Shown here: positions 191-43,733 of the stretch, piece by piece | Layout of the letters: the number at the start of each line of letters is the position of its first letter | Position numbering within the stretch: the stretch's first letter is position 1 | Assembly: GCA_021790995.1 (NCBI GenBank) | Contig: JAJYFA010000007.1 | Coordinates: 1 to 52,463 of the forward strand | Source of the DNA: Acidobacteriota bacterium | Lineage (GTDB): Bacteria; Acidobacteriota; Terriglobia; Terriglobales; Acidobacteriaceae | DNA length: 52,463 bases | Direction of reading: 5' to 3' | Translations under genes and position numbers: made by a program | The notes under the pieces: model-generated | What the model saw: only the letters and a program-made list of their open reading frames with translations | The model's database searches: none | Told to the model about the DNA's origin: nothing

Positions 191-1258
191 CTAATTTCTG
201 ATCTCCGCCAGCAAGCCCTCAATCTCGGACTTCTCCTGCGCCGTTAGCCTCAACAGAGGCGCTCTGGTGTGGCCGCCGAAGTAGCCATTGAAATCGCAGG
301 AGTATTTCACGCCGGCGATGCCGAGTTCCCCTACAATACGCCGATTCGCGGCGGCAATGCGCTGCTGCTTCTCGCGCGCCAGCGCAAGGTCGTGATCCTT
401 CCATGCAAGGTAAATCTCCTGGCACGCCTGCGGCGCGAAGGCTGCGAAGGCCAGGATGGCACCGGAAGCCCCGGCCTCCAGCGACTCCAGAACCGTGCTC
501 CCCGACCCACATAGGACCTGGAACCCGATCTCCCTGCTCCGGGTCTTCACCGAAATTGCGGGGGGTACCGTAGCCACCGCTGCGCCGCCAGCCAGATTGT
601 CTGCTGGAACAAACGCCGCCTCAGTCCTCGTCGCAGTATCGACTCGCGGCGCGAGCATGCGCTCCGTCACCGCCTCGAAGACCTGCGTTACCGGCACGGT
701 ACGGCGCGGCGCATCCCGGGTAGCCGCAACCTGCGCCTTAATCCTGTCGACATTCCCGGCCGAGTCTTTGATCCCAACGATATTGGGATGCTCGGAGAGT
801 TCCTCCACCACTTCGACCGGAATCTCATACGGCACGCACCGCGGCATGTTGTAGAGCACCAATGGCAGCGGCGACCGGTCGGCAATGCTCCGGAAGTAGT
901 TCAGCACCGCGGCCGCATTCATCTGCCCGGCATAGTAGCTGGGCGGGCGAACCAGAATCGCATCGTAGCGAAACCGGGCTGCGGCTTCAGCCAGCTCCAC
1001 CGTAGCCCTCACGCTTTCACGCCCCACGCCGGCAATCAGCACCTTTTCCGGCGCGACAGCCTCAGCCGCCACACGCAGAACCTCGCGCGACTCGGCGTCA
1101 TCAACCAGCGGAGCTTCGCCCGTCGAGCCCAGAACCACAATTCCAGACAGCAGACTCAGCGAATACCGCGCGATATTGGCTTCAATCTTGCGAAAATAGA
1201 CGCGCTCATCGGAGTAAAATGGCGTCGTCACTGCGGCAAAAATACCTTCAAGCAGCAT
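191..1258 (-). CDS. DapA/HOGA-like aldolase with a large internal insertion
   Basis: Member of the dihydrodipicolinate synthase / N-acetylneuraminate lyase superfamily of class I Schiff-base aldolases. The phosphate- or carboxylate-binding motif is GSTGEAPL (residues 44-51), the family Tyr is in LYNMP (Tyr136), and the Schiff-base Lys is in GIKDSAG (Lys164). The wording of the first half resembles 4-hydroxy-2-oxoglutarate aldolase more than true DapA, but the substrate is not proven. Usual family length is about 295 residues; this protein has 355 because about 60 residues (roughly 182-245) lie between the Lys strand and the next core strand, which resumes at FQVLCGSGS. I chose the ATG at 1258 because it starts directly at the core (MLLEGIFAAVTTPF); a GTG seven codons upstream is possible. 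The gene is divergent from the membrane-protein gene at 1405. Confidence 0.75.
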   Translation of the reverse strand: MLLEGIFAAVTTPFYSDERVYFRKIEANIARYSLSLLSGIVVLGSTGEAPLVDDAESREVLRVAAEAVAPEKVLIAGVGRESVRATVELAEAAARFRYDAILVRPPSYYAGQMNAAAVLNYFRSIADRSPLPLVLYNMPRCVPYEIPVEVVEELSEHPNIVGIKDSAGNVDRIKAQVAATRDAPRRTVPVTQVFEAVTERMLAPRVDTATRTEAAFVPADNLAGGAAVATVPPAISVKTRSREIGFQVLCGSGSTVLESLEAGASGAILAFAAFAPQACQEIYLAWKDHDLALAREKQQRIAAANRRIVGELGIAGVKYSCDFNGYFGGHTRAPLLRLTAQEKSEIEGLLAEIRN

Positions 1259-1404
1259 GGATTTATTGTAGATGCCCACCGCAATTCATAGCGCGGCGCC
1301 CTTCTCGACGCGGTCAAAATTGTTCGCCTTGGCGGCTGCGGTGTATGGTAAGTGGTGAAATAAAACGCACAGACAGCAGCAACTCTCCTTCAGGAGCCGC
1401 GCCG

Positions 1405-1887
1405 ATGGACACATCCGTGCAAACCGAGCTTGAGGAATCCAGCAGATCCAGGCTTGCGGGACAGACGCTCTCGTTTCTCCTGCACACGCTCTTGGCGCTT
1501 GGCTCCTGGATCGCGCTCATGCTCCTCGGCTACGCGATCAACCCGAGCGGCGTGCCGCAATCCGCTATTTTTCTTCTCTCTCTGGGAGTGCCGCTTGTCA
1601 TCGGGCTCTTCGTTGCGCGCATTTATCCTTCGGAGACGGCAACCCTGGTCTGGCTGCTGGGTCTGATCTGGTTCCTGATTGCCTGCCTTTTGGTACTCGA
1701 CCTGCCGACCGGGCCGAACCAGTGCTTCCAGTGCGATGCGACGGAGAAACTTGCCCGCACTTTTTTTAGTCTGCCGCGTCCCAGCGGGCTGATCGACGAC
1801 GATGGTCCGTTTATCGGAACCTGGCCGGCGGCGGCGCTTATCGGCTACTCGATTGGAGCAAAGCTGGGCTTTCACAGGGCGGAATAG
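1405..1887 (+). CDS. Small multi-pass membrane protein, unknown function
   Basis: The 160-residue protein starts at ATG 1405, preceded by CAGGAG at 1391-1396. The same frame stays open upstream, but that segment is antisense to the aldolase gene and does not look coding. Three clear hydrophobic helices are visible (about residues 24-46, 52-73 and 77-99), then a hydrophilic loop with the cluster Gln-Cys-Phe-Gln-Cys, then a weaker hydrophobic segment near the C-terminus. I recognise no family. It is convergent with carB, whose stop codon lies 52 bases downstream; I see no clear hairpin terminator between them. Confidence 0.6.
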   Translation: MDTSVQTELEESSRSRLAGQTLSFLLHTLLALGSWIALMLLGYAINPSGVPQSAIFLLSLGVPLVIGLFVARIYPSETATLVWLLGLIWFLIACLLVLDLPTGPNQCFQCDATEKLARTFFSLPRPSGLIDDDGPFIGTWPAAALIGYSIGAKLGFHRAE

Positions 1888-1938: not shown

Positions 1939-5215
<3,277 letters not shown>

Positions 5216-5232
<17 letters not shown>

Positions 5233-5836
5233 GGTTTGTTCGCTTCGCCTCAAATTCGCGCATTTGTGCTTTGAAAGGCCACGACTTCAGTCGTGCCGCT
5301 GGTGTCGAGTTGTTTTGAAAGGGCACGGCTTCAGCCGTGCCGATACACGGCTCTTCAAAGTCTTGGGGCTTTAGCCCCTGAGGGATGGGGTCCAGCTTCC
5401 AGCCCGGAAATGCCGAGGAGTATTTGTATTCGGCCGGGCTTTGGCAAAGGCCCTTCTTGACCGGGTTGAGATGAATGTAGCGCATGTGCTTGTCGCAATC
5501 CTCCGCGTCCCGAATCCGATGATCGGAAAATCCGCGATGCCAAATTTCCGTGCTCGAACCGAATTCCTTCTTCACGCGATAGGAAAATCCACCCTTGATG
5601 AGTTGGACGGCACGTTCCAGTGCACCTAACGGAGTAATGAGCAGATGAAAATGCTCAGGCATCAAGACGAACTCGTGCAAAAGATATACCTTGCCGCGAT
5701 GCGCCAAAAGAGTTTTGAAAAACATCCGCGCCCACGACTCGTTCCGAAAAAGCGCTCGCCGTTCCCACGTGTCGGACGTGACAAAGTAGGTTTGCGCGTT
5801 ATTCGTTGCATGTTCGCGCGCCGGTTTCAAAACCAT
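5216..5836 (-). CDS. REP-associated tyrosine transposase (RAYT, Y1 HUH family)
   Basis: The 206-residue protein has the HUH metal-binding motif in [10 protein letters not shown] (His62, His64) and the nucleophilic Tyr in [12 protein letters not shown] (Tyr120). These are the hallmarks of Y1 transposases of the TnpA-REP group, single-copy enzymes that act on REP hairpins. Six REP-like palindromes flank it. Its last 45 or so residues are encoded by three of them, so the C-terminal tail is probably not part of the fold. The start is uncertain: GAGGG directly abuts the ATG at 5836, and a palindrome lies seven bases upstream. The gene sits in the carA-carB operon, same strand, and its stop (5216) lies inside carB. 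It may be domesticated or still able to mobilise REPs. Confidence 0.9.
5280..5378. repeat. Three REP-like palindromes on the carB side of the RAYT gene
   Basis: The hairpins are: CACGAC-TTCA-GTCGTG at 5280-5295; GGCACGGC-TTCA-GCCGTGCC at 5322-5341; and GGGGC-TTTA-GCCCC at 5365-5378. All have a four-base TTCA or TTTA loop closed by G-C pairs. They lie inside the 3' part of the transposase reading frame. The segment TTTTGAAAGGGCACG at 5313-5327 recurs inverted at 5892-5906. Confidence 0.85.
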
Positions 5837-5842
5837 CCCTCA

Positions 5843-5944
5843 GCGGCTAAAGCCGCGACCTTTCTTCTGTCATCTTCGGCACGACTAAAGTCGTGCCCTT
5901 TCAAAACGGTCCTGCCCAAAAAATAGCGGAGCCTAAAGCCCCGC
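5843..5944. repeat. Three REP-like palindromes upstream of the RAYT gene, inverted relative to the other group
   Basis: The hairpins are: GCGGC-TAAA-GCCGC at 5843-5856; GGCACGAC-TAAA-GTCGTGCC at 5878-5897; and an imperfect one, GCGGAGC-CTAAA-GCCCCGC, at 5926-5944. The loop TAAA is the complement of the TTTA/TTCA loop in the other group, so the two groups point in opposite directions around the transposase gene, as REP/iREP pairs do in BIME-like units. Confidence 0.85.
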
Positions 5945-5973: not shown

Positions 5974-6588
5974 TTAGCTCCGAGCGGCATCGAGGTCCTT
6001 TGCGTTCCTGGCCATCAACCGAGTGAAAAACTTTGAGCGTGAATCCGTCCCGCGATTGAGTATTTCGATTTGAGGAGACCGAGCATGAAGTATGGCTAAG
6101 TTTTCGATAGCTCTGCGCATGTACAGATCCCCAAATTCCTCAGCAGAGATCAGTATGCGATTGAAGTAGAAATCGTTGAAGTCGAGGAGTTCAAGTCTCA
6201 CCCTGCTTCCACCTGTCTCTGCACTCAAAATGCGTCCAGGTATTTCCCCTTTCTGAGTGGAAAGCAGTTTCTTACGTTTTTCCTTGTCGGATTTGAGTTT
6301 CTCATTGAGCGCCGCCTGGGACTCAATTGTTTCCGACCTAGCGTTACGCACAGCTTGGATATAGTCTCCTAATCTATCGTGAAACTCTTCGGCCTCCCCT
6401 ATATAGCAGGCAGCACCTCCATCTCCCGGCTCGAAAAAAAAGCGGTACACCCTGGGGCCACGATAGTCGCCGAACGAACTGGACGACGTATTGACATCTA
6501 CACGAAAAGGCCAATTATCCTGATCCGACGCCGTAATAAGTCGCCAATTGAACGACACACTAATCGTAATCGGAACAGGAGCGGTCAT
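5974..6588 (-). CDS. GIY-YIG-like protein translationally coupled to carA
   Basis: A 204-residue protein. Residues 44-76 read like a GIY-YIG nuclease core: a VYRFFF strand replacing GIY, then a CYIGEAEEF strand (61-69), then an Arg in DRLGDY (Arg72). A Glu in RRAIENLAI (Glu162) could be the metal-binding acid. A charged helix with many Lys and Glu lies between (about 85-112). The match is by pattern only, and the fold assignment is tentative. The ATG at 6588 overlaps the carA stop as ATGA, with GGAGG and GGAAGG just upstream inside carA, so translation is coupled. The gene is visibly richer in A+T than carA and carB, which suggests recent acquisition. Function is unknown; the first 40 residues match nothing I know. 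Confidence 0.6.
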   Translation of the reverse strand: MTAPVPITISVSFNWRLITASDQDNWPFRVDVNTSSSSFGDYRGPRVYRFFFEPGDGGAACYIGEAEEFHDRLGDYIQAVRNARSETIESQAALNEKLKSDKEKRKKLLSTQKGEIPGRILSAETGGSRVRLELLDFNDFYFNRILISAEEFGDLYMRRAIENLAILHARSPQIEILNRGTDSRSKFFTRLMARNAKDLDAARS

Positions 6589-7736
6589 CCCTTCCACTCC
6601 TCCATCATCCGCCGGAAGTCGCGGAACAGGTAGTGCGAGTCGTGCGGACCGGGTGCGGCTTCGGGATGGTACTGAACGCTGAAGAGAGGCAAACTCTTGT
6701 GCCGCAGCCCTTCAAGCGTCTGATCGTTCAGATCCACGTGGGTCAGTTCGACCTCGTTGGCGTTGATCGAATCGGGATCGACGGCAAAGTTGTGATTGTG
6801 TGCCGTGATCTCCACCTTGCCCGTTAAGTTGTTGCGCACCGGATGGTTGCCGCCGTGGTGGCCGAACTTGAGCTTATAGGTGCGGCCGCCGAGGGCCAGA
6901 CCCGTCAGCTGGTGGCCCAGACAGATTCCAAAGATCGGCACACGGCCCATCATCTGTCGAATGGCGCGGACCGCATAATCGACCGGCTCGGGATCGCCGG
7001 GGCCGTTTGACAGAAAAACCCCGTCGGGCTTGAGCCCGAGCACGTCGTCTGCCGCAGTTTCGGCCGGAACGACCGTTACGCGGCAATTCTCGCGAGCTAA
7101 CATGCGTAATATGTTTTGTTTAATCCCAAAATCATAAGCTGCTACATGAAGAATTTTTCGCTGTGTCTCTGGCTTCTGGATAAATCCTTCGGCCAGCAGC
7201 GATTCGCCCATCTGGCTGCGCGGGTCGGTGGCGTCGAACTCGTACCGGGTCTTGGTCGAGACCACACGCGCCAGGTCGGTGCCGTCCATCTTCCTGATAT
7301 TTCGAGCCTTCCGGACCAGAGCGTCGGGATCGGAAGCGCCGGTCGCAATGACTCCGCGCATGACGCCCTTGGTGCGGAGGTGCCGCACCAGCGCCCGCGT
7401 GTCGATCTCGGCAAGCACAGGCACTGAAAAGCGCTCCATATACTCGTCTGTCACCTGCTCCGACCGCCAGTTGGAACTGATGGCCGAAAACTCGCGCACG
7501 ATCAGGCCCTCGATAAAAGGCTTCGAGGCCTCATTGTCTGAATGATTGGTGCCGTAGTTGCCGATCTGTGGGTTGGTCAGTACGACGATCTGTCCCGCAT
7601 AGGATGGATCTGTCGCAATTTCCTGATAACCAGTAAGGGAAGTATTAAAAACCACTTCGCCCTGGCATTCGCCTGGGTGTCCATGGCCTTCGCCGCGGAA
7701 GATGCGCCCGTCTTCGAGCGCGAGGATTGCCTGCAT
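6585..7736 (-). CDS. carA: Carbamoyl-phosphate synthase small (glutaminase) subunit
   Basis: CarA hydrolyses glutamine and channels ammonia to CarB. The 383-residue product has the CarA-specific N-terminal domain (LALEDGRIFRGEG, SLTGYQEIATDPSYAGQIV) and a C-terminal class I amidotransferase domain with the nucleophile in FGICLGHQLTGLALGG and the His-x-Glu pair in SVQYHPEAAPGPHDS. I chose the ATG at 7736 because GGAGAGG lies just upstream; a TTG eight codons earlier is less likely. It is followed on the same strand by the GIY-YIG-like gene (ATGA overlap), the RAYT gene and then carB, instead of directly by carB. The lepB stop is about 70 bases upstream. Confidence 0.97.
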   Translation of the reverse strand: MQAILALEDGRIFRGEGHGHPGECQGEVVFNTSLTGYQEIATDPSYAGQIVVLTNPQIGNYGTNHSDNEASKPFIEGLIVREFSAISSNWRSEQVTDEYMERFSVPVLAEIDTRALVRHLRTKGVMRGVIATGASDPDALVRKARNIRKMDGTDLARVVSTKTRYEFDATDPRSQMGESLLAEGFIQKPETQRKILHVAAYDFGIKQNILRMLARENCRVTVVPAETAADDVLGLKPDGVFLSNGPGDPEPVDYAVRAIRQMMGRVPIFGICLGHQLTGLALGGRTYKLKFGHHGGNHPVRNNLTGKVEITAHNHNFAVDPDSINANEVELTHVDLNDQTLEGLRHKSLPLFSVQYHPEAAPGPHDSHYLFRDFRRMMEEWKG

Positions 7737-7809
7737 CGCCTCTCCGAGGAGTGGATTCAATCGATTTTAGCAGATTTTTCGGACCGATTCTGTCGGGATT
7801 TCCACCGAT

Positions 7810-8466
7810 TTAACGGACCACGCCCGCGTCGTGAGTCGGCCAATAAATAAAAACTGCCTTTCCGTAAATCAGGGAGCGGTCCACCGGCCCGAAGTCCCGG
7901 CTGTCGGACGAGATCGAGCGATGGTCGCCCATCATGAAATATTCGTCTGGAGGGAGCACGATCTCCGCCATGGACCGGTCGTCGCGGTACTTGGCAGGGA
8001 CGTAGGGCTCGTGCACGAGTTTGCCATTGACGTAAACGCGGCCGCGATCGATACGGATGTGATCGCCGGGAATGCCGATAACCCGTTTAATGTAGCTACG
8101 TTGCGGGTCGAGCGGCGCCGGATGCAGAAACACCACCACGTCGCCGCGCCCGATGGCTTCGAAGTGATAGGCAAGCTTGTTGATAAACAAGCGGTCCCGG
8201 TCTTCGAGCCGCGGCAGCATGCTGGTGCCTTCCACGCGGACCGGCTGGTAAAGAAAGGTGATGATGAGGACCGATGCGGTTGCTGCGATGAGCAAGTCGC
8301 GCAGCCAGAGAGAGAATCCTGAGGACTGACTCTTCTGAGCAGGCACCGCGCCGGCGGGCGGCTGGCTGGCATTGGAAACAGTCCGTACTTGAGTAGTGGG
8401 GCGATCGCCGGGTTCGAATTGCATCTGCGTTAAATCTAGATTACCCGGAACTGCGGCTGACTGCAT
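7810..8466 (-). CDS. lepB: Signal peptidase I
   Basis: Membrane-bound serine-lysine protease that removes signal peptides from exported proteins. The 218-residue product has one N-terminal membrane helix (about 52-72), the catalytic Ser in EGTSMLPRL (Ser82), the general-base Lys in YIKRVIGIPGD (Lys127), and the family's late motif GDHRSISSDSRDFG. A long, proline-rich cytoplasmic N-terminus precedes the helix. I chose ATG 8466, with a G-rich stretch just upstream; a TTG 15 codons earlier is also in frame. The gene stands upstream of carA on the same strand. Confidence 0.93.
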   Translation of the reverse strand: MQSAAVPGNLDLTQMQFEPGDRPTTQVRTVSNASQPPAGAVPAQKSQSSGFSLWLRDLLIAATASVLIITFLYQPVRVEGTSMLPRLEDRDRLFINKLAYHFEAIGRGDVVVFLHPAPLDPQRSYIKRVIGIPGDHIRIDRGRVYVNGKLVHEPYVPAKYRDDRSMAEIVLPPDEYFMMGDHRSISSDSRDFGPVDRSLIYGKAVFIYWPTHDAGVVR

Positions 8467-8740
8467 CTCGGCCCCCCGGAGGTGGTTCACAGATCGGTAC
8501 GCCAGGGTCAATTTGCTGTTCCCGGCGGCATCAGCCGGAGTTCAGCGGCGAAGCTCCAGCGAAGTTCATGGCGGTCGACGAGCAAATCAGGAGGCCTTTC
8601 AATCGGAGGTGGTAGAGCGATCACCCTTTTGGGGCAGACTTGATCCCCCGTTTGGTGGATTGTTGGGTAACTCATACCAATAGTCCAATGTAACTGCAAG
8701 ACAAAAGCGGAGCTGGCAAAGACTGAAGGGCAGAATTGAT

Positions 8741-39365: not shown

Positions 39366-40223
39366 TCAAGCTTTCATCAGACCCTTCAGCGCGAGCACAT
39401 TCCGCTCCTCGTCGCCGGGTTCGTCGACGGGCGTCTCCGCGATGAAGGCGGCGTGGGCAAAGCGCGGGTCGTTCAGGAGCCGCCGGAACGGGTCCAGCCC
39501 CAGTGTTCCCTCGCCGATGTGCTCGTGCCGGTCGAGCTTCGATCCGCGCGCCGCCTTGGCGTCGTTGCAGTGCCACACGCGCACGGCCTCATGCGTCACT
39601 GTCGCCTCCGCCTGCTTCATCGTCTCTTCGTAGCCCTCGGCTGAGCCCAGATCGTATCCCGCGACCCAGGTGTGACAGGTATCGAGACACACGGCCACAG
39701 GCGCATGGCGCTTCAACCGCGCGACCAGTTCCGCCACCTGCTCAAAGCTGCCGCCCAATGAGAACTCTGCTCCCGCGGTGTTCTCGATCAGGATGTGAAA
39801 GCCGGTTCCCTGCCACGGAAGGCCGTCGATCGCCCGTTCGATCGACTCTGCGGCCAGCTTGAGCCCCTCATCGCGAGTCAGGCCCTTCCATGAGCCGGGA
39901 TGCAGCACAAGGTACTCGGCGCCCAGCGCCAGCGCACGCTCGATCTCCCCGTGAAAGGCCGCCACACTCTTTTCGCGCACATCGGCCGACTGGCTGCACA
40001 CGTTCACCAGATAGCTGGTGTGAATCACGAGCGGGCCGACATCGAACTTCTTGCGCAGTTCCCTCATGCGCTCGCCCTGTTTGGGGTCGACCTTGGGCGC
40101 GCGCCACATGCGCGGACTGGAAGAAAAAATCTGAAAGGTGTTGGCGCCGATCTCGCGGGCGCGTTCGACAGCGTTCGAGGCTCCGCCCGCAGTACCGAGG
40201 TGTACGCCGATGCGTCTGGTCAT
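39366..40223 (-). CDS. nfo: Endonuclease IV
   Basis: AP endonuclease of base excision repair, a zinc enzyme with a TIM-barrel fold. The 285-residue product has the metal ligands in the expected order: LVIHTSYLVN, YLVLHPGSW, ILIENTAG, VCLDTCHTW, VWHCNDAK, DRHEHIGEG and FIAETP. Length is normal. No ribosome binding site is seen; TAGACT ends six bases before the ATG, which would fit a leaderless mRNA. It is divergent from the uvrB-head copy, placing two repair genes back to back. Confidence 0.95.
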   Translation of the reverse strand: MTRRIGVHLGTAGGASNAVERAREIGANTFQIFSSSPRMWRAPKVDPKQGERMRELRKKFDVGPLVIHTSYLVNVCSQSADVREKSVAAFHGEIERALALGAEYLVLHPGSWKGLTRDEGLKLAAESIERAIDGLPWQGTGFHILIENTAGAEFSLGGSFEQVAELVARLKRHAPVAVCLDTCHTWVAGYDLGSAEGYEETMKQAEATVTHEAVRVWHCNDAKAARGSKLDRHEHIGEGTLGLDPFRRLLNDPRFAHAAFIAETPVDEPGDEERNVLALKGLMKA

Positions 40224-40260
40224 GGAGAAAGTCTACAGTCCGTCGGAGGGCGCGGGTTGT

Positions 40261-40358
40261 TCGTCATTTATTCGCTCCTCTCGTATAATTCAGGCTATGG
40301 ACTTTCAGCTCGTCACCAGCTACATGCCGCGCGGCGAACAGCATGAAGGTGACGGGCA
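40261..40358 (+). pseudogene. Truncated duplicate of the uvrB promoter and first codons
   Basis: The segment repeats the uvrB 5' region. TATAAT lies at 40284-40289, seven bases before ATG 40297, and the first 27 bases of the reading frame (40297-40323) are identical to uvrB 41080-41106. The next six codons differ in sequence but encode Met-Pro-Arg-Gly-Glu-Gln against Lys-Pro-Lys-Gly-Asp-Gln in uvrB, mainly conservative changes. After that the similarity is lost and the frame ends at 40431. It is the head of a uvrB allele, cut off from its body by the toxin-antitoxin pair. Confidence 0.85.
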
Positions 40359-40433
40359 GCCGGTAGACGGTCGAAGTTCTACTGCTCCTGGTCGCTCCCT
40401 GAGCCAGTCTTGCACAGAATCCAACCTGTAAAA

Positions 40434-40439
40434 TATAGT
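40434..40439 (+). promoter_or_regulatory. -10 box of the HigBA module
   Basis: TATAGT ends six bases before the toxin start codon at 40446, with TTGCAC (40410-40415) 18 bases upstream as a partial -35 box. The spacing predicts a leaderless transcript, as for uvrB. Confidence 0.45.
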
Positions 40440-40445
40440 TGACAC

Positions 40446-40691
40446 GTGATCGAAATCCGCCAGACAGTCGTCTTTGCGGAGTGGCTGCGGAAACTGCGCG
40501 ACGAAGTTGCGCGGGCACGCATTCAGATTCGGGTTCGACGTGTGTCGCTCGGCAATTTCGGCGATGTGAAGCCGGTTGGCGGCGGCGTAAGCGAGTTGCG
40601 CGTCGATTACGGACCAGGTTACCGAGCGTATCTGCGCAGGCATGGAGAGGTTCTGGTTCTGCTGCTTGCCGGCGGAACAAAGAAGACGTAG
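40446..40691 (+). CDS. RelE/HigB-like toxin, truncated by an amber codon
   Basis: Addiction-module killer protein of the RelE/ParE superfamily. The 81 residues (IEIRQTVVFAEWLRKLRDEV, then GNFGDVKPVGGGVSELRVDY, then AYLRRHGEVLVLLLAGGTKK) match the family to just before its last helix. The codon after KKT is TAG (40689-40691). In the same frame the sequence continues with EADIVKAKELAKEWEEGL to TAA at 40746-40748, the expected C-terminal helix. One base change (CAG to TAG) would explain the stop. The truncated protein keeps the fold's core but lacks the terminal helix, so activity is uncertain. The GTG start has no leader. Confidence 0.85.
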   Translation: MIEIRQTVVFAEWLRKLRDEVARARIQIRVRRVSLGNFGDVKPVGGGVSELRVDYGPGYRAYLRRHGEVLVLLLAGGTKKT

Positions 40692-40701
40692 GAGGCCGAC
40701 A

Positions 40702-41022
40702 TTGTCAAAGCAAAAGAACTTGCGAAAGAGTGGGAAGAAGGCCTTTAAGACGACAGCGTGGGATCCGGCCGAGCATCTTTCGACCCCGGAGTCGGTAGCA
40801 GCCTATCTGGAGGCCGCTTTCGAAGATGGCGCCCCCGCTCTGATTGCAGCTGCGCTGGGCGACGTGGCCCGAGCCCAGGGAATGACACAGTTGGCCAGCC
40901 GGGCTGGCGTGACGCGCGAGGCGCTCTATAAGGCGCTGTCATCGGCAGGCGATCCGCGGCTGTCCACGCTGCTCGGAGTGATGAGGGCGCTGGGGATAAA
41001 AATACGCCCCGTAGCGGCATAA
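40702..41022 (+). CDS. HigA-like antitoxin
   Basis: A 106-residue addiction-module antidote protein. The N-terminal part (TTAWDPAEHLSTPESVAAYL) and the helix-turn-helix (GMTQLASRAGVTREALYKAL) are typical. I chose TTG 40702: GGAGG at 40691-40695 is six bases upstream and begins within the toxin's amber codon. The intact toxin frame would overlap the start by 47 bases, the usual arrangement of this family. It ends 57 bases before uvrB. Confidence 0.85.
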   Translation: MSKQKNLRKSGKKAFKTTAWDPAEHLSTPESVAAYLEAAFEDGAPALIAAALGDVARAQGMTQLASRAGVTREALYKALSSAGDPRLSTLLGVMRALGIKIRPVAA

Positions 41023-41067
41023 CCGTATAAACTGCGCCTCTCTTTCGTCTTATATTCGCTGTCCCGG

Positions 41068-41079
41068 TATAATCCCCTC
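41068..41079 (+). promoter_or_regulatory. uvrB -10 box, leaderless spacing
   Basis: TATAAT (41068-41073) is a perfect -10 box, six bases before the ATG at 41080. The transcript should therefore start at or within a base of the start codon. No Shine-Dalgarno sequence lies upstream. The -35 region (TTCGTC at 41044-41049) is poor. No LexA-type operator is obvious. Confidence 0.65.
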
Positions 41080-43071
41080 ATGGACTTTCAGCTCGTCACC
41101 AGCTACAAACCCAAGGGCGATCAGCCGCGGGCCATCGACCAGCTCCTCGAAGGGCTGGTTGCCGGTGAGCAGCACCAGGTGCTGTTGGGCGTGACTGGAT
41201 CGGGCAAGACCTTCACCATGGCCAAGGTGATCGAGCAGTCTGACCGGCCGGCGCTGATTCTGGCGCACAATAAAACCCTCGCGGCCCAGCTCTACCACGA
41301 ATTCAAGCAGTTTTTCCCCTCGAACGCGGTCGAGTACTTCGTGAGCTACTACGACTACTACCAGCCGGAGGCGTACATTCCCGCCGGCGACCTCTATATC
41401 GAAAAAGAAGCCACGATCAACGAAGAGCTCGACAAGCTGCGCCTCTCGGCCACGCGATCGCTCTTCGAGCGGCGCGACGCGATCATCGTCAGTTCGGTGA
41501 GCTGCATCTACGGTCTCGGTTCGCCGGAGGCTTACTATGGCATGTTGCTGCTGCTTGAGAAAGGCCAGCAGATCAGCCGCAAAGACATCACGCGGCGGCT
41601 GGTCGAGATCCTCTACGAGCGCAACGACACAGACTTCCGGCGCGGGACGTTTCGCGTGCGCGGTGACGTGATCGAGGTCTTCCCCACCTACGATGAGAGT
41701 GCCTACCGCATCGAGATGTTCGGCGACGAGATCGAGTCACTGGCGCAGATCGATCCTTTGTTCGGCACCGTCAAACAGAAGTACTCGCGGTTGCCGATCT
41801 ATCCCAAGAGCCACTATGTGGTGCAGCCGGAACGTAAGTCCGAAGCCATCGATTCAATCACCGCCGAGTTGAACGAGTGGGTGGCGCATCTGGAATCGGA
41901 AGGCCGCATGGTGGAAGCGCAGCGCGTGCATCAGCGCACGCGCTTCGATCTAGAGATGATCAAGTCGATGGGTTACTGCCACGGCATCGAGAACTACTCG
42001 CGCCATTTTTCGGGCAGGCTGCCGGGCGAGCCGCCACCCACGCTGCTCGATTACTTCCCGCGCGATTTCCTGCTCTTCGTCGACGAGAGCCACGCGACCA
42101 TTCCACAGGTGCACGGCATGTGGTACGGGGATCGCAGCCGCAAACAAAACCTCGTCGATTACGGCTTCCGTCTGCCCTCAGCGATGGACAACCGCCCGCT
42201 CAAATTCGAGGAGTTCGAGAACCGCGTGCACCAGGTGGTCTACGTCTCGGCCACGCCGGGTCCATACGAACTGACGAGGTCGAGCGGCGTGGTGGTCGAG
42301 CAGGTGATCCGACCCACAGGGCTCATTGATCCAGAGGTTGAAATTCGGCCGGTAAAGGGCCAGATCGATGATCTGTTAGCCGAGATTCGCGACCGCGCCA
42401 AACGCAACGAGCGCGTACTTGTCACCACGCTCACCAAGCGCATGGCCGAGGATCTGGCCGGCTACTACACCGAGGTGGGCGTGCGCTGCCGTTATATGCA
42501 TTCGGAGATCGAGACGTTGGAGCGCGTCAAGCTGCTGGCCGCTTTGCGCAAGGGCGAGTATGACGTGCTGATCGGCATCAATTTGCTGCGCGAGGGACTC
42601 GATCTGCCCGAAGTCTCACTGGTGGCGATACTCGACGCCGATAAGGAAGGCTTTCTGCGTTCGGCGGGCTCGCTGATCCAGACCATGGGCCGCGCGGCGC
42701 GCCACGTTGCAGGCAAGGCAATTCTTTACGCCGACAGGGTCACAGACTCGATGCGCCGCGCGATCGACGAAACGGATCGCCGCCGCGCCATCCAGCGGGC
42801 TTACAACGAGGAGAACGGTATTGTGCCGCAGTCGGTCATCAGCCAGGCGGATATGGGTCTTGCGCACATTCTCAAGGCTGAGTACGGCGAGATCGACGAG
42901 CAAGAGACCGCGGGTATTCCCGAGTTCAAAACTCAGGAAGAACTTGACGGCTACATTGCCAAGCTCGAATCTGAGATGCGCGAGGCGGCAAAGAAGTTCG
43001 AGTTCGAGAAGGCCGCCAGACTGCGCGACGCGATCAAAGAGCTGCGGGAGAAGGAGTTTTTGTTCGGGTGA
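41080..43071 (+). CDS. uvrB: Excinuclease ABC subunit B
   Basis: UvrB verifies DNA damage in nucleotide excision repair, loaded by UvrA and cutting with UvrC. The 663-residue product is complete: [20 protein letters not shown], Walker [13 protein letters not shown], the beta-hairpin block [15 protein letters not shown], helicase motifs [16 protein letters not shown] and [30 protein letters not shown], and the C-terminal UVR domain ([20 protein letters not shown]). The first nine codons and the promoter are duplicated 783 bases upstream. The intact gene has a perfect -10 box six bases before the start. Confidence 0.97.
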
Positions 43072-43154
43072 GGTGGTCCGTAGGCAGGGCGCGCCGATTT
43101 GCGCACGTGTCCGCTACCATAAATGCCTGAGCAACTCAATTCAGGAGCACCAGC

Positions 43155-43733
43155 ATGGGAACCAGCCGCCTTGAGGCCTTCAGCGACGGCGTTATCGCCG
43201 TCATCATCACCATCATGGTGCTGGAGCTGCATGCCCCCGCCGCACCCACTACCGGAGCGGCCGCGGCCCTCGTGCCCAGCCTCCTTGTCTACGCTTTAAG
43301 TTTCATCATGGTGGCTATCATGTGGATCAACCACCACCACTTCTTCCAGCATGCGCGCCGTGCCACACCCGGCCTCATCTGGTCGAACATGTTTCTGCTC
43401 TTCTGGATGTCGCTGGTTCCCTTCGGCACCGCGTGGCTCGGCCAACATCCCACGGACCCGATACCCATCGCCATTTACGGCGCGACGCTGGCCTTCTGTT
43501 CCTCTGGATTCCTGCTGATTCAGTCGGCACTAGCCTGTCAGAACCGCGAGGATGAACGAACCCTGTGTTTGTTCGCGCGCATTCGGATCAAAGCTTTCAT
43601 TAGTACGGTGCTCTATCTACTGGCTGCGCCCCTGCCTCTCTGGTCGCCGTATCCTTCGCTGGCGATCTTTGTACTAATTCCGGCCGCATACTTCTGGCCG
43701 GATCCAAAGTCCGAGCCGGCGGCTGCAAGCTGA
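43155..43733 (+). CDS. TMEM175 family potassium-channel-like protein
   Basis: A 192-residue membrane protein with six hydrophobic segments. The signature RLEAFSDGVIAVIITIMVLE (about 5-24) holds the Arg-x-x-x-Phe-Ser-Asp motif of TMEM175/DUF1211, and MVAIMWINHHHFFQH is the typical second block. Bacterial members form tetrameric potassium-permeable channels; selectivity of this one is not shown. AGGAG precedes the ATG. It follows uvrB by 83 bases and may have its own promoter. Confidence 0.88.
   Translation: MGTSRLEAFSDGVIAVIITIMVLELHAPAAPTTGAAAALVPSLLVYALSFIMVAIMWINHHHFFQHARRATPGLIWSNMFLLFWMSLVPFGTAWLGQHPTDPIPIAIYGATLAFCSSGFLLIQSALACQNREDERTLCLFARIRIKAFISTVLYLLAAPLPLWSPYPSLAIFVLIPAAYFWPDPKSEPAAAS

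Follow-up and report, generated by a model that had tools for sequence, protein, structure and literature searches.

A toxin-antitoxin gene pair between two uvrB heads in an Acidobacteriaceae genome, and comparable displaced gene ends in its genus

The window analysed here, a stretch of 52,463 nucleotides from an Acidobacteriaceae genome (GenBank assembly GCA_021790995.1, contig JAJYFA010000007.1), contains an intact copy of the damage-repair gene uvrB and, upstream of it, a further uvrB promoter with only the first codons of the gene (the stub), with a toxin-antitoxin (TA) gene pair between the two (Table 1). The corresponding site is empty in two relatives, the divergence of the two uvrB heads is of the size found between species, and other genomes of the genus carry like scars at uvrB, uvrC and a permease gene. 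We consider it somewhat more probable than the reverse that DNA of another species entered by homology-facilitated illegitimate recombination, displacing the resident head, and that the stub promoter now also transcribes the TA pair.

Comparison of the window with itself aligned positions 40260-40342 with 41044-41125 at 77% identity over 83 bp (E 1.4e-9). This repeat scored 87 against a mean of 21.6 for shuffled flanks, with none of 300 shuffles scoring as high; the three other direct repeats spaced 350-3000 bp in the window all lie within one carB-like open reading frame (ORF; 1939-5232). The double head with a TA pair inside it, reported in a first-pass annotation of the sequence, is confirmed: TATAAT stands 7 bases before an ATG at 40297 and 6 bases before an ATG at 41080, where that annotation had placed them. 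The 27 identical coding bases on which it relied (40297-40323 and 41080-41106) are present, but prove little by themselves because the same 27 occur in the heads of 3 of 59 other species. The similar upstream bases TTCGTC and ATTCGCT are likewise real, but belong to a TTCG-N7-TTCG box common to 54 of the 59 congener uvrB promoters. The truncated frame then loses its similarity to uvrB and ends with a stop codon at 40429-40431 (44 amino acids overall).

No recombinase was recognised in the insert (40343-41043) by ORF, Pfam or NCBIfam analysis, the toxin and antitoxin being the sole recognised genes. A transposon target-site duplication was considered and rejected, since an exact short flanking repeat is expected of it and the repeat here is 83 bp at 77% identity. 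The search for further copies of the 780-base unit that had been suggested found none in the genome (94% complete, in 263 contigs), where positions 40200-41180 (981 bases) match only themselves. A search of the same genome with UvrB gave one strong match, the uvrB of the window, and two weaker ones.

UvrB was found in all 80 genomes of the genus, including that of the window, although only weakly in six (G050, G064, G068, G069, G072 and G073), and the uvrB promoter and head were compared in 59 congeners. In the nearest congener by UvrB (G075, 94% of residues), nfo is followed directly by uvrB with a single head and without a TA pair. The window aligns with it in two blocks, 39378-40342 and 41044-43067, that overlap on 82 bp of the single head; the alignment runs from nfo straight into the stub, and the uvrB side resumes at 41044. 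The same 82-bp overlap was found with a second relative (G023, nfo cut at the contig end), which also has one head and no TA pair. The continuity from nfo into the stub indicates that the cut-off head is native by position, and that the TA pair and the second head came in. In three other congeners (G002, G006 and G046) nfo and uvrB are separated by about 1.8 to 6.5 kb of other DNA, so this gap accepts DNA easily. The alternatives that the first-pass annotation had raised against its own reading found nothing in their favour in the material examined: none of the 59 congeners has both heads without cargo, empty sites exist, and, as to origin from a paralogue, the upstream head stands in native synteny in a genome with one strong uvrB match.

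The stub and the current head are 68.3% identical upstream and 84.8% identical over 46 coding bases, whereas the heads of the window average 64.2-65.8% and 81.9-82.0%, respectively, against those of the 59 congeners. They thus differ about as heads of different species do on average, and the description of the truncated copy as another uvrB allele, not an exact duplicate, is reasonable. At codon 12 the stub has R, as in 44 of 59 congeners, and the current head has K, as in 14. The conservative similarity said to extend over six further codons did not hold as described: M at codon 10 and E at codon 14 of the stub occur in none of the 59 congeners, and the alignment to the empty-site relative ends at 40342, in codon 15. 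Because of these two residues, the stub is probably decaying too.

Displaced gene ends were sought more widely. Among 398 genomes of the family, 69 (including 40 of the 50 in the genus) matched a promoter-plus-head pattern (box, 17 to 27 bases, ATGGANTT), which is uninformative for the 329 without any match; the genome of the window is the only one of the 398 with two matches on one contig, and two others (G047 and G219) have two matches each on different contigs. When 60 uvrB loci were scored over 67 to 2,450 bp upstream, a second head was counted in the genome of the window (z 23.9) and in G070 (z 9.5), but not at L057 (z 4.6) or L022 (z 3.3), and no cargo-free double head was found among them. 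In G070 a more decayed cut-off uvrB head is followed by genes for a TumE toxin and a helix-turn-helix (HTH) protein on the other strand, and then by uvrB. Matches to uvrC were found in 76 genomes; scoring of 78 loci from 70 genomes over 116 to 4,000 bp downstream identified a second uvrC tail in two of the 70; L192 (z 5.4) and L132 (z 4.1), which had weaker gapped scores, were left out of this count. One of the two genomes (G057) has a relative of the TA pair of the window between uvrC and the second tail; the other (G007) has a CHAD-domain gene there.

Of 38 permease loci, 30 were scored, and one was positive (G043, z 9.1; L260, L265 and L257, at z 3.4-3.5, were not counted). The order in G043 is VapBC-like genes, stub 1, an esterase-like gene, stub 2, a HI1419/HI1420 TA pair and the permease head, the VapBC-like and esterase-like genes being named by eye. 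Stub 2 is significant (0 of 300 shuffles). Stub 1 shares 24 exact bases with stub 2 by eye, but its score of 35 against the working head is hardly above the next-best chance match of 31; serial stacking in G043 is probable. The G043 repeat includes a dispersed CCCCACCGCAGGTGG palindrome that also precedes other permease genes, which leaves the CCCTCACATCAC..ATG part as the only specific one. A dispersed CCCCACCGCAGGTGGC palindrome was also noted upstream of the permease gene at L257 (in tandem), L260 and L269, with similar forms at L253 and L271.

Flanking repeats were significant at three of 16 TA loci tested (L064, which is the window, L065 and L068; 0 of 300 shuffles each); L070 was weak (6/300), L071 gave 17/300, and the rest 65/300 or more. 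The left edge of L072-L075 was set by position, as no toxin start was found. Repeats at only three of 16 loci imply that the TA pair itself need not be the moving part. As background, 400 kb of one congener genome (G003; 245 ORFs of >=150 amino acids) contained four spaced direct-repeat pairs: the first resembles a displaced gene head, another is intergenic, a third lies inside a gene and the fourth joins two ORFs. Thus, the displaced-end scar is uncommon but general in the genus, and is not tied to this TA pair.

By sequence, the TA pair is assigned to type II, TIGR02683/TIGR02684 (HI1419/HI1420 type), and not to HigBA proper; both proteins exceed the curated cut-offs of these families. The first-pass description of the cargo as nothing but a HigB/HigA-type module was right in that only a TA pair lies between the heads, that the toxin gene precedes that of an HTH-containing antitoxin, as in HigBA, and that the predicted toxin fold (from a nine-sequence alignment, mean pLDDT 82.3) matches HigB1, ParE and RelE. 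No HigB or HigA family model in Pfam or NCBIfam matched either protein at E up to 0.001. The toxin had no Pfam match, neither protein had a family in PADLOC, and sequence searches of solved structures gave none for the toxin and one marginal match for the antitoxin. Distant antitoxin relatives are encoded elsewhere in the genome, e.g., with 50% identity on contig C234.

The usual home of this TA family is downstream of uvrC. A scan of named genomes covered 80 of 202 relatives: the best 14 matches are all in Acidobacteriaceae, Acidobacteriales or Acidobacteria bins, and 11 of these 14 lie downstream of uvrC on the same strand at a distance of up to about 2.6 kb, whereas none of the other 66 loci had uvrB, uvrC or the permease gene in the stored flank (E below 1e-8). 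Of 70 genomes in a second, overlapping set, nine have the TA pair or its antitoxin downstream of uvrC and a tenth has a remnant there; counts of the TA pair are lower bounds, at most six candidates having been scored per genome (G036 was found only via the uvrC search). The 4 kb downstream of uvrC in the genome of the window contain no match to the TA pair, and the adjacent gene is zinc-ribbon-like by eye. The uvrB site of the window is an exception.

With its native stub, its gene kept whole by a new head, its imperfect repeat, its recombinase-free insert and the probable serial stacking in one relative, the anatomy of the scar fits, but does not prove, homology-facilitated illegitimate recombination. 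On the left, the window loses homology to the empty-site relative after 40342; on the right, it regains it from 41044, which leaves one homologous end and one joint without homology. In the proposed sequence of events, DNA from another species, carrying a TA pair followed by uvrB with its own promoter, would have entered an ancestor of this strain. The incoming part of uvrB would have paired with the resident gene, and the other end would have been joined, without homology and at a chance point around base 40342, within the resident head. What stayed beside nfo as a stub would be the resident promoter with codons 1 to 15, and uvrB would have kept a complete head, supplied by the incoming DNA, with no need of a recombinase. 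Genes for DprA and for a ComEC-type competence protein are present in the genome.

Several observations weigh against this account. DprA and ComEC each also match 10 of 14 control genomes and are at most permissive. The compared loci offer no source for the joint sequence (Table 1), and no donor was identified: among the congener loci searched (67 to about 2,500 bp upstream of uvrB) none had a match of this TA family. Sliding identity along uvrB against 28 full-length congeners gave 84.7% for the nearest relative, with the best match shifting from window to window. An old duplication with later drift could also yield 77% identity. The TA pair retains a promoter of its own, which bears on the regulatory part of the proposal. 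Finally, 13 of the 16 TA loci have no significant flanking repeat. The first-pass interpretation is partly supported, in that an empty site exists; given the same scar with other cargo, the 13 loci without a repeat and the lack of a donor, the idea that the cassette is a mobile unit with its own head is conjectural.

An alternative that we regard as unlikely is that a small circle carrying the TA pair and a fragment of the uvrB head entered by a single crossover in the head, in which case the stub would consist of the resident promoter and the end of the donor fragment, and the current head of the donor promoter and the resident gene. An identical stretch flanked by divergence is predicted, and the 27 of 27 coding bases, the identity of about 68% upstream and the differences after codon 9 agree with this; circularised linear DNA entering Escherichia coli by a single crossover has been reported (PMC3240628). 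The crossover stretch would be only 27 bases, however, and is one that the 3 of 59 heads mentioned above share anyway. No circular source was found, and no search was aimed at one.

Local duplication, in which a tandem copy of the uvrB head (or a long target-site duplication) arose, the TA pair landed between the copies and the stub drifted, is rather unlikely. The native place of the stub agrees with it, and M10 and E14 are such changes as drift would give. On the other hand, 27 unchanged bases are unlikely if drift was uniform and as fast as in the flanks (0.7 to the 27th power), the R at codon 12 of the stub is the residue that most congeners have, the stub promoter keeps both the box and TATAAT, and the 60 uvrB loci scored include no cargo-free double head.

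Some integrative elements replace the end of their target gene, which is kept whole by the copy that the element carries. A site-specific element of this kind, using gene ends as attachment sites, would account for the same genes being struck repeatedly (uvrB in the genome of the window and in G070; uvrC in G057 and G007), but is very improbable here: neither the two genes of the window cassette nor, by Pfam, the cargo of G070 or G007 includes a recombinase (the cargo of G043 was judged by eye only), the repeats are imperfect and vary in length and place from gene to gene, and, unlike in such elements, the window insert has no integrase and no fixed attachment site was seen. An assembly artefact, conceivable in a genome of 263 contigs, is hardly credible, as joining at the shared 27-mer would collapse two heads into one, positions 39600-43600 contain no gap letters, and like structures occur in four other assemblies (G070, G057, G007 and G043).

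The promoters of both heads were examined for features conserved in the genus. Of 59 congener uvrB genes, 54 have a TTCG[CT]-N6-TTCG[CT] box no more than 60 bp from the start, against a chance expectation of about 0.0005 boxes per 60 bp (from box frequency in 180 kb of G003), and 48 have TATAAT no more than 20 bp from the start. A like box (TTCG[CT]-N6-TTCGC) was found upstream of lexA in all six genomes tested, and at none of six recA loci. It has the same 11-base period as the alphaproteobacterial LexA box GTTC-N7-GTTC named in PMC3323433, which also cites a paper on the Acidobacterium capsulatum LexA box. In the window the LexA-like box is preserved at both heads (40260 and 41044), and the stub promoter also keeps TATAAT. 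The operator palindrome of the TA pair (GTGAACTATAGTTNAC) is self-complementary at 14 of 16 positions in all eight relatives compared and at 12 of 16 in the window. From the boxes in both heads and the eroded operator, it is possible that the TA pair now depends on the displaced uvrB promoter, which may make it damage-inducible; under the favoured recombination, a TA pair transcribed also from the stub promoter would answer to DNA damage. Other LexA-like boxes in the window were noted at 8548-8563 (minus strand, about 37 bp before a signal peptidase gene at 7810-8511, minus) and at 5244 and 5802 (plus strand).

The route proposed is a known one; what is new is the part displaced, the promoter and head of a damage-repair gene, and the cargo, a type II TA pair. 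The remark in the first-pass annotation that such an event would be unusual without a recombinase needs qualifying, as displaced gene ends arising by homology-facilitated illegitimate recombination have been proposed for type VI secretion system (T6SS) effector and Rhs loci (PMC5361080). As in the T6SS effector-immunity arrays of Vibrio cholerae, the module brings a replacement part, the old part is kept as a relict and modules stack serially, but the parts displaced there are effector 3' ends and immunity genes. The orphan 3' regions of Rhs loci are similarly strings of displaced gene ends, but tails of polymorphic toxins and not, as in the window, the head of an unrelated gene (PMC5361080). 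One homologous and one non-homologous end are also characteristic of the process in transformable bacteria and in an E. coli study (PMC3240628), although that is a laboratory process and the present case is read from a scar. Short variable segments of bacterial genomes resemble this insert in being small, unexplained by known mobile elements and attributed largely to illegitimate recombination, but displaced gene heads around TA pairs are not described in the available part of that report (PMC2884548). A literature search found no description of a displaced gene head beside a TA pair; its coverage left out most subscription papers, and absence is thus unproven.

It is not well understood how small TA pairs spread and establish themselves in the absence of a transposase. 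Displaced-head stubs are readable fossils of single insertions, recording target, direction and order of arrival, and their presence at uvrB, uvrC and a permease gene in one genus makes such events countable and offers a test of whether captured promoters alter the TA response. A broader proposal, possible but doubtful, is that gene ends in this genus (the uvrB head, uvrC tail and permease head) serve as recombination ports that stack TA pairs and other small cargo without a recombinase, each newcomer supplying a spare end and displacing the previous one, and that at uvrB the LexA-controlled promoter was thereby handed to the TA pair, which would have become damage-induced in step with erosion of its operator.

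Table 1. Features of the uvrB locus of the window (positions 1 to 52,463) and of loci with like scars in other genomes of the genus
Feature	Position	Strand	Remarks
nfo (deoxyribonuclease IV), native left neighbour of uvrB	39366..40223	-	TIGR00587, 245 bits; adjoins uvrB in G075 and G023
Displaced uvrB promoter	40260..40296	+	LexA-like box 40260-40275 (TTCGTCATTTATTCGC); TATAAT 7 bases 5' of ATG; continuous with nfo side in empty-site relative
Truncated uvrB head, codons 1 to 15	40297..40342	+	Alignment to empty-site relative ends at 40342
Joint sequence between cut-off head and TA core	40343..40407	+	Best matches among compared loci only 13-14 bases
TA core promoter and operator	40408..40445	+	GTGAACTATAGTTNAC palindrome of relatives, eroded in window
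Toxin, 81 aa, GTG start, TIGR02683 (upstrm_HI1419, RelE/ParE family)	40446..40691	+	105.9 bits (cut-off 62.85)
Antitoxin, 106 aa, TTG start assumed, TIGR02684 (dnstrm_HI1420), PF21716 and HTH_3	40702..41022	+	112.8 bits (cut-off 53.7)
Current uvrB promoter	41044..41079	+	LexA-like box 41044-41059 (TTCGTCTTATATTCGC); TATAAT 6 bases 5' of ATG
uvrB, intact, 663 aa	41080..43071	+	TIGR00631, 1048.8 bits
TumE toxin (PF20126) and HVO_A0114-type HTH protein	L018 (G070) 655-1501	-	Between decayed uvrB head and uvrB; second, unrelated TA at uvrB
CHAD-domain gene flanked by intact uvrC and a second uvrC tail (63 bp, z 15.5)	L176 (G007) 540-1750		
Two serial permease promoter/start stubs, different cargo behind each (probable)	L192 (G043) 2181-4608	-	
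Zinc-ribbon-like gene head (by eye), with a copy of 92 bp at 84% lying about 1.25 kb upstream and another open frame between	L234 (G003:C1 about 1251586-1253023)		

Elsewhere in the window, an IS200-like Y1 transposase (PF01797) is encoded at 5216-5836, between the carB-like gene (1939-5253) and a carA-like gene (6585-7760). Positions 5311-5385 and 5829-5908 match several places in the G075 genome in both orientations, in the manner of a REP/RAYT repeat.

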